Below are positions 588-11,008 of a stretch of 39,204 nucleotides of DNA, in pieces. A program made the position numbers and the translations under genes. The notes under the pieces were generated by a model. It made no database searches, was not told the origin of the DNA, and worked only from the letters and a program-made list of their open reading frames with translations. This stretch comes from Gammaproteobacteria bacterium. Its GTDB lineage: Bacteria; Pseudomonadota; Gammaproteobacteria; Steroidobacterales; GCA-2729495. Each line of letters opens with the position of its first letter. The stretch's first letter is position 1. The stretch covers positions 1-39,204 of the forward strand of contig JADYZO010000043.1 of assembly GCA_020853135.1 (NCBI GenBank), in the 5' to 3' direction.

Positions 588-840
588 AAAACGCAACTAC
601 GGGGGTTCCTTTTGCTCCCCGATGCTGCGATCCAACTGCTTGATTTGTCCGCGCGTAATTCTTGGATCTGTATGGCGCTGACTTATGGTCTTTGCGGACT
701 TCGGGCCAGTTCCAAGGAGCGAGGTCGGAGCGAGGAATGGCCAGGAGAGAGTGGAATGTGGCCCGGAACGGGGCGAGAGGCTGGCCGGCGAAGTCCGCAG
801 GAACCCCCGAGAACACGCGGGAACCGGCGCGATCGGGCAA
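588..840. other. Gene-free stretch with nothing recognisable
   Basis: Between the AbiEi promoter and the duplicated ssrA terminator I see no credible gene. Open frames exist on both strands but they lack a ribosome binding site and family-like sequence, and they read straight through the terminator hairpin at 845-872. The stretch may be decayed island DNA. Confidence 0.5.
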
Positions 841-912
841 GAAAAAACCCCAACCGAGAACGGTTGGGGTTTCATTATTGGTGGTCAATTCGGGAACCGA
901 ACCCGCGTCCGC
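841..912 (-). repeat. Displaced, degenerate copy of ssrA 3' end plus terminator (candidate att site)
   Basis: This copy matches 2501-2574. The 22 nt at 891-912 match 2553-2574 with one difference and cover the tmRNA T arm. The CCA-end sequence TGGTGG (plus strand) occurs at 879-884 and 2541-2546 at identical spacing. The six intervening bases, the acceptor stem, differ completely. Similarity ends at 912, where this copy continues into unrelated DNA. No tmRNA body is attached, so it cannot be a functional tmRNA. It is best explained as a recombination product at the 3' end of ssrA. Confidence 0.7.
845..872 (-). terminator. Rho-independent terminator attached to the displaced ssrA 3' end
   Basis: AAACCCCAACC (845-855) pairs perfectly with GGTTGGGGTTT (862-872). 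A further G-C pair closes an AGAA tetraloop. On the minus strand the stem runs into a T tract (complement of the A run 842-847). Position and architecture match the real ssrA terminator at 2506-2533: both lie 6-7 nt beyond an encoded CCA end. Confidence 0.8.
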
Positions 913-1062
913 CTTCCAAGACAGAGAGGCAGGCATTGCTATTTTGTCCCTGGCTTAAATGGTTTGGCCGTTTCCTTGGACAACCGTCAGATTGGCTTGG
1001 CGGCCTGACTCGGCGTGTTCGATGCGGACAACCGGGGGCGGCGATCACTCTTGGCGCAAGAC

Positions 1063-1107
1063 AATGCACCCGCATTGACAAGACAAGGCGATTGCATTAC
1101 CATGCAA
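1063..1107 (+). promoter_or_regulatory. prlF-yhaV promoter with two inverted-repeat operators
   Basis: A perfect -35 TTGACA (1075-1080), a 17-nt spacer and a -10 TACCAT (1098-1103, 4/6) precede prlF. Two perfect inverted repeats with 4-nt spacers overlap these boxes. AATGC-ACCC-GCATT (1063-1076) touches the -35, and TTGCAT-TACC-ATGCAA (1092-1107) covers the -10. This is well placed for autorepression by the AbrB-type antitoxin PrlF, alone or with YhaV. Confidence 0.6.
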
Positions 1108-1137
1108 GACGTCCCACTTCCTGATCGGAGATGCCCC

Positions 1138-1467
1138 ATGTCCGCCACCCTCGAAGTCGAATCCACGCTGACCGACCGTTACCAGACCACGGTGCCGGAA
1201 ACTGTGCGTCGCGCCCTTCGCCTCGGTAAGCGCGACAAGATCCACTACACGATTCGTCCCGGCGGCGAAGTGGTGCTGACGCGCGTCGATGCGGCCGAAG
1301 TTGACGACCCGGTGCTCGGTCAGTTCTTGGGCTTTCTGGCGCGCGACATCGCCCGCCATCCGGAGCGCCTGCAGGCCGTCGACGCCGCCTTCGTTCAGCG
1401 CCTCCAATCCCTGACCGGCGGCATCGAAGTTGATCTCGACGCCCCCTTGTCGGCGGACGATGAATGA
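1138..1467 (+). CDS. prlF: Type II antitoxin PrlF (SohA), AbrB/SpoVT fold
   Basis: This 109-residue protein has the length usual for PrlF (E. coli about 111). Residues 9-45 (STLTDRYQTTVPETVRRALR, then GDKIHY-like and EVVLTR segments) form the swapped-hairpin AbrB-type DNA-binding domain. The acidic C-terminus (VDLDAPLSADDE) would contact the toxin. PrlF neutralises the YhaV ribonuclease and autoregulates the operon. The ATG at 1138 is preceded by CGGAG (1126-1130) at 7 nt. An upstream in-frame ATG at 1102 falls inside the -10 box and is rejected. The stop codon overlaps the yhaV start by 4 nt (ATGA), indicating translational coupling. Confidence 0.88.
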   Translation: MSATLEVESTLTDRYQTTVPETVRRALRLGKRDKIHYTIRPGGEVVLTRVDAAEVDDPVLGQFLGFLARDIARHPERLQAVDAAFVQRLQSLTGGIEVDLDAPLSADDE

Positions 1468-1970
1468 GCAGCAGCAAGCCTGCGCCCCTGGTCATTCACG
1501 GCTGGACGGTTTTCGCCCACCCGCTGTTCCTCGCACAGATTGAAGCACTGGTGCAGCAGGTCGATGCCTTCAAGCAGAAAGACCCGGTCGGGTACGTGAA
1601 GAAGAACGCCAGCAAGCGGCTGGCGGCAATCACCAAGCTCGCGTTCGACGTCATCCCGCAAGACCCGACGCGGCCGGAATATCGCCAAGGCAACACGCTT
1701 GGCGACGACTACAAGCATTGGTTCCGCGCCAAGTTCTTCCAGCAGTACCGCTTGTTCTTTCGCTACCACGCGCCTAGCAAAGTGATCGTGCTGGCGTGGG
1801 TGAACGATGACGATACGAAGCGCGCCTACGAGAGCAGCGACGACGCCTACCGGGTGTTTCGCAAAATGCTGGAAAACGGCCATCCTCCGGACGACTGGAG
1901 TGAGTTGCTGGCCGAGACCCGGGCCGAAGGGCAACGCCTCCAGCGGTTCGCCGCTGGCATCGCGCCGTAA
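1464..1970 (+). CDS. yhaV: YhaV-family ribonuclease toxin
   Basis: The protein has 168 residues (E. coli YhaV 154). It matches the family: an N-terminal IHGWTVFAHPLF motif, an LAFDVIPQDPTRPEYRQG segment around residues 60-77, and the core HWFRAKFFQQYRLFFRYH with VIVLAWVNDDDTKRAYES. YhaV is a RelE-superfamily ribonuclease that cleaves mRNA and rRNA and is held inactive by PrlF. It overlaps prlF by 4 nt and shares its promoter. A gene for a double-HTH protein follows after 56 nt, probably in the same transcript. The toxin looks complete. Confidence 0.9.
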   Translation: MSSSKPAPLVIHGWTVFAHPLFLAQIEALVQQVDAFKQKDPVGYVKKNASKRLAAITKLAFDVIPQDPTRPEYRQGNTLGDDYKHWFRAKFFQQYRLFFRYHAPSKVIVLAWVNDDDTKRAYESSDDAYRVFRKMLENGHPPDDWSELLAETRAEGQRLQRFAAGIAP

Positions 1971-2026
1971 GGCTTGGCTTCGGTGACGAACAGCGTTGTC
2001 ATGGGGCATCTGCTTTGGAGAAGACG

Positions 2027-2539
2027 ATGCACTACCCCGTGATGACCGAAAAGCACCTCGCCGAGCGCTGGCAGGTCAGCCTCAAGACCCTGCAGCGCTG
2101 GCGGCTCGATGGCGAGGGGCCGGTTTGGCACAAGCTGTTCCGTCATGTCCGCTACCACGAGGCCGACGTTGTCGAATTCGAACGACGCGGTGCGCAGCAC
2201 CTGATGACCCTGCTCGGCATCCATCGGGAGTTCAAGCCCGCCGATGAGGATGTCGGCGAGGTGTTCGATGCCCAGGGAAGCCGCTACCTCACGGCCAAGG
2301 ACATTGCCGAGGCAGCGTCACTGCCCAGCCACTTTTTTCTGGATCGCGCCGAGCGTCAACGCAAACAGATCCCGCATCTGATGCTGGTCGGCAACCTGCG
2401 TTTTTCGCTGCAAGCGATCCTGGACTGGGAGGTGGCCAACAGCGTGCCGGGCAACGCTGCTACAGACGCGCAGAACCGCGCCAACGCTGGGGGAACGGAC
2501 GAAAAAAAGCCCAACCGGAAAGGGTTGGGCTTTGGGTAA
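2027..2539 (+). CDS. Double helix-turn-helix DNA-binding protein, excisionase/MerR-like
   Basis: This 170-residue protein has two HTH_17-type domains. The first, about residues 6-50, reads MTEKHLAERWQVSLKTLQRW and then VRYHEADVVEFERR. The second, about 90-140, reads YLTAKDIAEAASLPSHFF and then LRFSLQAILDWE. Such domains occur in phage excisionases, transposon regulators and toxin-antitoxin-linked repressors. The ATG at 2027 has GGAG (2017-2020) 6 nt upstream; a TTG at 2015 is less likely. The last 12 residues (EKKPNRKGLGFG) are encoded by the ssrA terminator, and the stop falls 1 nt before the encoded tmRNA CCA end. The native C-terminus may therefore have been replaced when the att junction formed. 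It could regulate the toxin-antitoxin operon or act as a recombination directionality factor; neither is shown. Confidence 0.7.
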   Translation: MHYPVMTEKHLAERWQVSLKTLQRWRLDGEGPVWHKLFRHVRYHEADVVEFERRGAQHLMTLLGIHREFKPADEDVGEVFDAQGSRYLTAKDIAEAASLPSHFFLDRAERQRKQIPHLMLVGNLRFSLQAILDWEVANSVPGNAATDAQNRANAGGTDEKKPNRKGLGFG

Positions 2540-2574
2540 ATGGTGGAGGCGGCGGGAATCGAACCCGCGTCCGC
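2501..2574 (-). repeat. Functional ssrA 3' end plus terminator (right copy of the direct repeat)
   Basis: This copy is continuous with the tmRNA body and its acceptor strand pairs with the tmRNA 5' end, so it is the functional one. Its 22-nt core at 2553-2574 recurs at 891-912 with one difference. Its terminator resembles the one at 845-872. Confidence 0.7.
2506..2533 (-). terminator. Rho-independent terminator of ssrA
   Basis: AAAGCCCAACC (2506-2516) pairs perfectly with GGTTGGGCTTT (2523-2533) around a 6-nt loop. On the minus strand the stem is followed by a T tract (complement of 2502-2505). It sits 7 nt beyond the encoded CCA of tmRNA. On the opposite strand the same bases encode the C-terminus of the double-HTH protein. 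Confidence 0.85.
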
Positions 2575-2905
2575 AAGCCCTACGCCATGAGCTCTACATG
2601 CTTATTCCGCCTTTGATCTCGCTGGCGGCTACCCGGCGAACAGGGAAGACCGACAGCCAGTCCGGATTGGGAGATTTGACGTTCGGACCCCGGACGAGCC
2701 CTGGCGCGATCCTGTGATTGATAACCCCGGCATCTGCTCCCGCACAGGCACGGACTCAGCCCGAGGGCTCAAGACTGGTTTTTAAGCAGCCAGAGCGTAG
2801 TTTGCGTCGTTCGCAACTATTGGTTTGCAGCTGGATTTACGAGGTGGTCTGCGCCTCGGCATGCACCCAGGGTTTCGCGACCCACGTCGAAACCAGGTCG
2901 CCCCC
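2541..2905 (-). ncRNA. ssrA: tmRNA (10Sa RNA)
   Basis: The 5' end GGGGGCG (2905-2899) pairs with the 3' acceptor strand CGCCTCC (2551-2545), followed by discriminator A and encoded CCA at 2541. This includes the G3-U70 pair that specifies alanine charging. The T arm is at about 2552-2568. The tag frame runs from 2814 to 2782 and encodes ANDANYALAA followed by TAA, a normal gammaproteobacterial-type proteolysis tag ending in ALAA. tmRNA with SmpB rescues ribosomes stalled on broken mRNAs and marks the peptide for degradation. At 365 nt the length is normal. smpB lies upstream on the same strand. The 3' end serves as the presumed island attachment site. Confidence 0.97.
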
Positions 2906-9085: not shown

Positions 9086-11008
9086 ATGGGCAGAGTGATT
9101 GGCATTGACCTGGGCACGACCAACTCGTGCGTGGCGATCATGGAGGGCAAGACCCCCAAGGTCATCGAGAACAGCGAGGGGGACCGCACGACGCCGTCCA
9201 CCGTCGCCTTCACCAGGGATGAGGAGGTGCTGGTGGGCCAGGCCGCCAAGCGCCAGGCGGTGACCAACCCGGCCAACACGCTGTTTGCGGTCAAGCGGCT
9301 CATCGGGCGGCGCTTCGACGAGGACGTGGTCAAGCGCGACATGTCGATGGTGCCGTACCGCATCGTGCGCGCCGAGAACGGGGACGCCTGGGTGGATGCC
9401 GGCGGCCGGAAGATGGCCCCGCCGGAGATCTCCGCCCGCGTGCTGATGAAGATGAAGAAGACCGCCGAGGACTACCTCGGCGAGCCGGTGACCGAGGCGG
9501 TCATCACGGTGCCCGCCTATTTCAACGATTCCCAGCGCCAGGCCACCAAGGACGCGGGCCGCATTGCCGGCCTGGAGGTCAAGCGCATCATCAACGAGCC
9601 CACCGCCGCGGCGCTGGCCTACGGCCTGGACAAGCAGCGCGGGGACCGCAAGATCGCCGTTTACGACCTCGGCGGCGGCACCTTCGACATTTCCATCATC
9701 GAGATCGCCGAGATCGACGGCGAGCACCAGTTCGAGGTGCTGGCGACGAACGGCGACACCTTCCTTGGCGGCGAGGATTTCGATGCGCGGATCATCGGCT
9801 ACCTGGCCGCGGAGTTCCAGAAGGAGAGCGGCATCGACATCCGCAAGGATCCGCTCGCCATGCAGCGCCTCAAGGAGGCTGCCGAGAAGGCCAAGATCGA
9901 GCTGTCCTCGCAGCAGCAGACCGACGTCAACCTGCCGTACATCACGGCCGATGCCAGCGGGCCCAAGCACCTCAACATCAAGATGACCCGGGCCAAGCTG
10001 GAGTCGCTGGTGGAGGAACTGGTCAACCGCACCATCGAGCCGTGCAAGGTGGCCTTGGCCGACGCCCGCCTGAAGGTGGGCGACATCGGCGATGTCATCC
10101 TGGTCGGTGGCCAGACGCGCATGCCGAAGGTGCAGGAGGTCGTGAAGGCCTTCTTCGGCCGCGAGCCGCGCAAGGACGTCAACCCGGACGAGGCGGTGGC
10201 CGTGGGCGCCGCGATCCAGGGCGGCGTGCTGTCGGGCGAGGTGAAGGACGTCCTGCTGCTCGACGTGACGCCGCTGTCGCTCGGCATCGAGACGCTGGGC
10301 GGCGTCATGACCAAGCTGATCGACAAGAACACCACCATCCCGACCAAGGCGGCCCAGGTGTTCTCCACGGCCGACGACAACCAGACGGCGGTGACGATCC
10401 ACGTGCTGCAAGGCGAGCGCCAGCGGGCGGGTGACAACAAGTCGCTGGGCCGCTTCGACCTCACCGACATCCCGCCGGCACCCCGGGGCATGCCCCAGGT
10501 CGAGGTGGCCTTCGACATCGACGCCAACGGCATCCTCAACGTGTCGGCGCGCGACAAGGCGACCGGGCGCGAGCAGAAGATCGTGATCAAGGCCTCCAGT
10601 GGCCTGTCGGAGGACGAGATCAAGCGCATGGTCGGCGATGCCGAGGCGCACGCCGAGGACGACCGCCGCTTCCGTGAACTGGTGGAGTCGCGCAACAAGG
10701 CCGACGGCCTGGCCCACACGACGGAGAAGGCGCTGGCGGATCTCGGCGACAAGGTGGCCGGCAGCGAGCGGGCCGCGATCGAGGCGGCGCTGGCGGACCT
10801 GCGCGAGGCGCTGAAGGGCGACAACCGCGATGTCATCGAGACCAAGGCTGCGGCACTGGCTGCAGCGGCTGGTGCGATTGCCCAGGCGGCCAATGACCAG
10901 GCCCGTGAGGGCCCGCAGGCCGATGGCGCGGCTGGTCCCGGGAGCGGTGATTCCGGCGTGATGGACGCAGAGTTCGAAGAGGTCAAGGGCGACAAGGGCA
11001 AGCCCTGA
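9086..11008 (+). CDS. dnaK: Chaperone protein DnaK (Hsp70)
   Basis: The 640-residue protein is full length. The ATPase domain opens [20 protein letters not shown] and contains [20 protein letters not shown] and the phosphate-loop signatures [17 protein letters not shown] and [14 protein letters not shown]. The linker [16 protein letters not shown] leads into the substrate-binding beta domain and helical lid. The C-terminus ends in the usual acidic tail ([15 protein letters not shown]). It folds and refolds proteins in an ATP cycle driven by DnaJ and GrpE. The ATG at 9086 has GGAG (9075-9078) 7 nt upstream. Confidence 0.98.

Follow-up and report, generated by a model that had tools for sequence, protein, structure and literature searches.

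A prlF-yhaV cassette without a recombinase gene at the ssrA 3' end carries ends resembling those of phage AcaML1

Elements flanked by attachment (att) sites but lacking a recombinase, such as cis-mobilizable elements (CIMEs) and integrase-less genomic islets, are a known kind of mobile DNA. Acidithiobacillus phage AcaML1 (JX507079) is reported to be an inducible prophage in the transfer-messenger RNA (tmRNA) gene of A. caldus, written srrA in that account, with 10-bp direct repeats (PMC3826726). Tyrosine integrases are described as the usual catalysts of integration at tRNA and tmRNA genes (PMC4383910), and serine recombinases aimed at the CCACCA end of such genes would therefore be unusual. 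The window analysed here is the whole 39,204-nucleotide contig JADYZO010000043.1 (C43) of a Gammaproteobacteria bacterium (assembly GCA_020853135.1, genome G000). At positions 879-2546, next to the tmRNA gene ssrA, lies a prlF-yhaV toxin-antitoxin cassette. It is probably a non-autonomous integrative cassette that has the half-sites of an AcaML1-type phage family as its ends and would be mobilised in trans by a large serine recombinase (LSR).

The cassette shares with AcaML1 both ends (R on the left and E on the right of the phage), the CCACCA core and the target gene, and AcaML1 gp9 resembles the N-terminal half of a cassette protein. The phage is 59 kb long and encodes recombinase subunits, whereas the cassette has no recombinase or phage structural genes. 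Having no LSR of its own, it is therefore classed as a derivative of AcaML1-type elements and not as a member. Like CIMEs and islets, it is att-bounded, lacks a recombinase and is stacked beside related elements; it differs from them in its toxin-antitoxin cargo and in ends that appear to come from a serine-recombinase phage targeting tmRNA and tRNA genes. The PrlF and YhaV proteins themselves show nothing unusual, and compared with other PrlF-YhaV systems it is the genetic setting that is new. Among the literature matches listed, none describes AcaML1-ended cassettes or YhaV at tmRNA genes, and newness is judged on that basis: recombinase-less att-bounded islets are already known, and AcaML1-type ends with toxin-antitoxin cargo at a tmRNA gene are what is new.

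The cassette and its phage-type ends

The cassette measures 1,662 bp from core to core and holds three genes between its ends: prlF, yhaV and a double helix-turn-helix (HTH) gene. Its features are listed below with those of ssrA. Other genomes are denoted G, contigs C, and sequence stretches or loci L, where some gene calls were made by a heuristic.

879..977, + strand: E, phage-type right end, with a mimic of the tmRNA T-arm (893-910) behind TGGTGG (879-884)
1063..1137, + strand: putative prlF promoter region, -35/-10-like at 1075-1103; homology to G007 and G009 begins at 1063
1138..1467, + strand: prlF antitoxin gene, 109 aa (PF15937, 1.5e-46)
1464..1970, + strand: yhaV toxin gene, 168 aa (PF11663, 4.6e-63)
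2027..2539, + strand: double-HTH gene, its 3' end running into R1 (PF12728, HTH_17, 1.3e-9; phrog_66, 5.8e-10)
2476..2546, - strand: R1, phage-type left end, CCACCA plus terminator (hairpin 2506-2533)
2541..2546, - strand: CCACCA, probable crossover core on the ssrA side (attL-like), placed by repeat edges in L127, L129 and L113 and by junctions in G002 and G006
2541..2905, - strand: ssrA (tmRNA), intact, tag ANDANYALAA (ARAGORN; Rfam RF00023, 221.5 bits)

With smpB situated upstream of ssrA, the order leftwards from ssrA is terminator (2506-2533), HTH gene, yhaV, prlF, a second TGGTGG (879-884), a second terminator (845-872) and an AbiEi gene. The 19-nt core of the E end is present in 17 viral contigs, where the cargo beside it includes McrBC-like, ADP-ribosylglycohydrolase and SNF2 helicase genes and a WYL regulator with GmrSD. 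One of these contigs, L226, has an end that matches AcaML1 at bases 59267-59359 of 59363 (89% over 93 bases) and also 4 of 72,556 plasmid records. At its other extremity, the phage starts with CCACCATTTACCC and matches R (E-value 8.8e-11); because AcaML1 was found through E, this match is independent. R1 of the window and the AcaML1 left end are identical at 59 of 72 aligned columns, a score that none of 3000 random host windows reached. CCACCATTTA is present at both ends of AcaML1, consistent with the 10-bp repeat.

Profile models of E and R were built from AcaML1 and viral contigs, with no window letters; the R model comprises AcaML1 and 9 of the 17 viral flanks, the 8 flanks without such a hairpin being left out. 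The R model matches the window at 2546-2476 (R1, 1.2e-8) and at 884-814 (a second copy, R2, 2.3e-16). The E model matches 879-977 (8.9e-12), a value that is not independent for the 19 bases of the window motif by which its viral contigs were chosen. Two genes adjoining the AcaML1 left end are annotated as recombinase subunits, one small and one large. The large subunit has 57% identity to the LSR of an insert in G006 and matches phage integrases in PHROGs. Judged by sequence, E and R are the two attachment half-sites of an AcaML1-type phage family with an LSR.

The original prediction, made from the letters of the window, held that the 3' end of ssrA with its terminator occurs twice in the same orientation, with prlF, yhaV, a double-HTH gene and no integrase between the copies. 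The repeat was recovered by a search of the genome with 619-912, which matched 2503-2574 (76% over query positions 1-71, E-value 3.6e-7). The gene content was confirmed by the Pfam matches, with PrlF_antitoxin and Toxin_YhaV domains both present, the two genes overlapping and both proteins full length, and by the lack of an integrase (PF00589) match on C43. The identity of the left copy needs revision. Its T-arm part agrees with ssrA at 27 of 35 positions, while its acceptor part, with six contiguous differences, is the element's own; only the T-arm and CCACCA resemble ssrA. Positions 885-977 are a cassette end, found also in AcaML1 and in other bacteria; since the E-end sequence recurs there, the left copy is an end of the element and does not derive from the ssrA of this host. 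The idea that host ssrA had decayed there was rejected on the same ground, as this sequence ends prlF-yhaV cassettes in other bacteria. That the ends are AcaML1-type half-sites was absent from the prediction, whose cassette and stacking readings were borne out.

The N-terminal half of the double-HTH protein resembles phage excisionase-regulators and is 45% identical over 53 aa to AcaML1 gp9. In searches with the protein, one plasmid record and 11 from phages (10 of them listed) matched, none beyond residue 58. It was found in 12 of 396 genomes of the order, and YhaV in 4 of 40 genomes of the family, this genome counted in both. A relative in G160 (L177) is 69% identical over residues 1-157 and occupies the equivalent position, behind a TacA-type antitoxin gene and a GNAT gene and again adjoining E ends. 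Other YhaV loci, judged by eye, have a promoter region resembling that of prlF here.

The E end also occurs on mobilizable IncP-typed plasmids (L238, L239), with a gene annotated as excisionase or HTH about 430 bp further on; one such plasmid has a heat-resistance locus and another has macrolide resistance genes. At L104:5261-5489, ~230 bp contain R and E on the minus strand and E on the plus strand; element ends thus face each other, as an inversion would leave them. No match to the E end was found in the ecoli_genomes set.

The same ends at other yhaV loci

The YhaV loci surveyed were the best 80 of 559 confirmed, mostly from Proteobacteria, and the shares given here are not representative of the whole family. 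L112 was taken as a contig of the relative G009 (G009:C40) and left out, leaving 79 other loci, 73 of them with at least 620 bp upstream of yhaV for analysis. Short E matches, mostly true tmRNA T-arms, were removed by requiring 80 model positions. At an E-value of 0.01 or lower, a full-length E was detected in 11 of the 79 loci, R in 20, either in 24 and both in 7; the reversed control gave 0. Near duplicates (L108/L109, L128/L130/L132, L136/L137, L150/L151) reduce the 24 att-bearing loci to 23 independent ones.

The position of E recurs in part of the loci. It starts 585-608 bp before yhaV in 8 loci, window included, and TGGTGG clusters in the interval 581-606 bases before yhaV (9 of the 75 loci with sequence there, window included; 0-3 in each other bin). 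In five of these nine (L097, L099, L107, L138 and the window) the bases after TGGTGG read GGAACCGAACCCGCGTCC, one change being allowed, and the same holds for L104 at -608. This near-constant distance is expected if the locus is an immobile remnant, that is, an AcaML1-type prophage that lost everything between its left end and an ancestral toxin-antitoxin cargo beside its right end; parts of LSR genes near yhaV in L127, L104 and L102 point the same way. Such a remnant would, however, need repeated independent deletion, and it accounts poorly for the varied cargos behind the same end: McrBC-like, SNF2 helicase, GmrSD with WYL, and the TacA-type antitoxin, GNAT and HTH genes of L177. It also sits badly with prlF-yhaV stretches that are nearly identical between genomes (L123/L135, 97.4% over 1145 bp; L167/L174, 97.0% over 931 bp). 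An R copy marks one edge of the shared stretch in L139 and in L175. We consider the remnant rather unlikely; different cargos behind one end, together with near-identical stretches, appear to favour repeated movement.

The type of target recurs as well. Downstream of yhaV, 18 tRNA or tmRNA genes were found within the DNA examined, in 17 of the 79 loci (two 'tmRNA*' predictions, in L139 and L162, omitted), all 18 convergent with yhaV. Nine are tmRNA genes, six of these within 1 kb. A tmRNA gene occurs roughly once per genome of several megabases; at that density, the 74 kb searched up to 1 kb past yhaV should hold about 0.02 such genes. The flank of the tmRNA gene (of tRNA-Phe in L113) is repeated beyond prlF in L127, L129, L139, L113 and L175. 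In L127, L129 and L113, identity between the gene-side and distal flanks begins at CCACCA and extends for ~85-145 bases; the L139 repeat is ~45 bases long, and the far copy in L175 is without CCACCA. Units measured from repeat to repeat span 1.5-4.7 kb (six loci).

A G+C-rich hairpin and its T-run dominate the R sequence, so the R copies might be taken for ordinary tRNA or tmRNA terminators that resemble each other by chance. The similarity exceeds the hairpin, however, covering the ~85-145 bp common to both copies in the three loci just named, and the reversed controls gave no matches. In L097, L121, L123 and L138, moreover, where the DNA examined contains neither a tRNA nor a tmRNA gene, R is found upstream of prlF. 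Chance resemblance is very improbable.

Junctions and stacked elements in relatives

Two relatives of the same genus resolve the integration junction. In G002, ssrA and CCACCA are followed by the native terminator and 147 bases further on by chromosome conserved with G006, which constitutes an empty site; the G002 contig breaks inside ssrA. In G006, ssrA and CCACCA are followed by R and a 68,853-bp insert that includes LSR, small-subunit-like and DUF2924 genes, then by CCACCA and the native flank common to G002. The far CCACCA is followed by the same native flank as in G002, and the crossover therefore lies within CCACCA. R occurs at the same kind of junction elsewhere. G356 has tRNA-Ala, CCACCA and R with LSR and DUF2924 genes behind. 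In G004, R is followed by a GNAT gene, and CCACCA-R occurs again 5.5 kb further along. At ssrA in G005 lies a tyrosine-integrase element. The arrangement of the window is thus not fixed among relatives, which include an empty site (G002), an LSR insert (G006), a tyrosine-integrase element (G005) and a GNAT cassette (G004), as the original prediction of a mobile cassette would have it.

The left part of the window belongs to another element:

814..884, - strand: R2, CCACCA plus terminator (845-872), forming the left end of the element stacked next
619..912, - strand: extended R2 flank, 82% identical over 305 bp to the post-ssrA sequence of G006 and 83% to G028:C103
1..558, - strand: AbiEi antitoxin gene, cut by the contig end and belonging to the next element (PF13338, 4.6e-16; PADLOC AbiEi, 1.5e-77)

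The G006 sequence matched by the R2 flank is the left end of the insert with LSR genes. The prlF-yhaV cassette is therefore stacked on an AbiE element, and the window, being an entire contig, ends on its left side in an assembly gap. By synteny, contig C98 (1-8301) is probably the far side of this gap. It carries an R copy (27-97), a GNAT-sized frame (114-626), JetABCD-type (Wadjet) genes and then conserved chromosome, and over 616 bp its GNAT stretch has 88% identity to the one in G004. Downstream of ssrA in G000, at least three R copies thus seem to be stacked, with the gap between the second and third, in line with the stacked islands that had been suggested.

A stack of unlike elements was seen in L037 (G005:C70), where an R copy at 10704-10763 lies 2.8 kb beyond ssrA, behind the tyrosine-integrase element. 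In G028 (C77:35223-35391 and C103:9-503), the post-ssrA sequence is ~92% identical to that of G006, while its tmRNA is only 80% identical to that of the window, which may reflect transfer between genera or a binning error.

Small stacked modules with toxin-antitoxin and defence genes also recall integron cassettes. Judged by where they map, without a dedicated attC search, the junctions here are at CCACCA and not at an attC fold, which recombines at GTTRRRY, and the IntI gene of this genome is on another contig (G000:C135:286-1224; TIGR02249, 436.1 bits, cut-off 265, passed by 27 of the 60 genomes searched). A repeat search of that 8.5-kb contig found no cassette array, and an integron seems unlikely for these reasons.

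Candidate enzymes and a route of movement

LSR genes adjoin the R end in AcaML1, G006, G356, L231 and L233. The G006 insert aligns to G035 and G262 only from about L034:4890, which would speak against an LSR; AcaML1 and the far junction in G006 brought the LSR back as the candidate. None of the five PF00589 matches in G006 lies inside its 68.9-kb insert. In 20 of the 24 att-bearing YhaV loci, 175,605 bases examined contained no match to two LSRs (AcaML1, G006) or three P4-type tyrosine integrases; the small subunit was not among these queries. The window cassette, with three genes between its ends, and its genome, where the G006 LSR finds no match at an E-value of 1e-60 or lower, agree with the predicted small cassette at the ssrA 3' end without a recombinase of its own. 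A search for a nearby integrase to the left of the window had also been suggested. The contig ends there, and none of the five PF00589 matches in G000 is on C43 or C98, the gap between these contigs being outside view; the integrase beside attL that marks a P4-type island was thus not seen on either contig.

Tyrosine integrases of this type, rather than serine recombinases, might nevertheless move the cassettes, with E mimicking the tmRNA end as their attB. Integrase genes lie just across CCACCA from the E end in L099, L223, L235 and L237, and beside ssrA in G005, G018 and G032. By eye, however, the flanks of those integrases are unlike R, and it is LSR genes that the R ends adjoin in the five places named above. 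This alternative is improbable. The arrangement in the four E-bearing loci looks as if E were a surrogate tmRNA end for other islands.

Movement by an LSR could proceed as follows. An AcaML1-type LSR, whose gene has those of a small subunit and a DUF2924 protein for neighbours, would integrate phage DNA at the CCACCA end of tmRNA genes and of some tRNA genes. The cassette would have kept the phage ends and the excisionase-like HTH gene, with prlF-yhaV as cargo. A phage or prophage of the AcaML1 family in the same cell would supply the LSR and small subunit, the two CCACCA sites would recombine, and the cassette would leave as a 1.66-kb circle able to enter another ssrA or tRNA end. A role of the HTH protein in setting the direction of recombination is suggested because its N-terminal half resembles phage excisionase-regulators and AcaML1 gp9. 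R1, terminator-like by sequence, would now serve as the terminator downstream of ssrA and keep that gene functional, so that insertion need not harm it. The toxin-antitoxin pair and the neighbouring defence genes may benefit both element and host.

Several observations weigh against this mobilisation by an LSR. No excision or circle of the cassette was seen, and with no LSR match in its genome the cassette may be stranded. Window E matches the AcaML1 right end at only 68 of 107 columns and may be inactive, and the exact end pattern was found in 1 of 369 genomes of the class, this genome alone. An R match was present at only 2 of 10 LSR places (G006, G356) in the DNA examined, so that LSRs of this family may use other sites too, and because tyrosine integrases adjoin some E ends there is a second candidate for the enzyme. 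Two loci counted as lacking a recombinase, L123 and L152, match the AcaML1 small subunit. E is found at other positions as well (L103 at -337, L102 at -1492, L119 and L121 behind yhaV), seven tRNA or tmRNA genes, one of them a tmRNA gene, lie upstream of yhaV in six loci, and the shared edges of L123/L135 are not at TGGTGG. In G007 and G009, finally, prlF-yhaV lies at ssrA with an R copy on either side, but both E and the HTH gene are missing.

More tentatively, the 3' ends of tmRNA and some tRNA genes could host a cassette array, in which short E- and R-ended toxin-antitoxin and anti-phage modules form head-to-tail stacks that are reshuffled by tmRNA phages with the same ends, through their serine recombinases. 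A short, recognisable pair of ends would link the spread of small toxin-antitoxin and defence modules that have no mobility gene to a single family of phage recombinases and a single kind of target. If the array exists, the phages' own integration enzyme would spread anti-phage genes.

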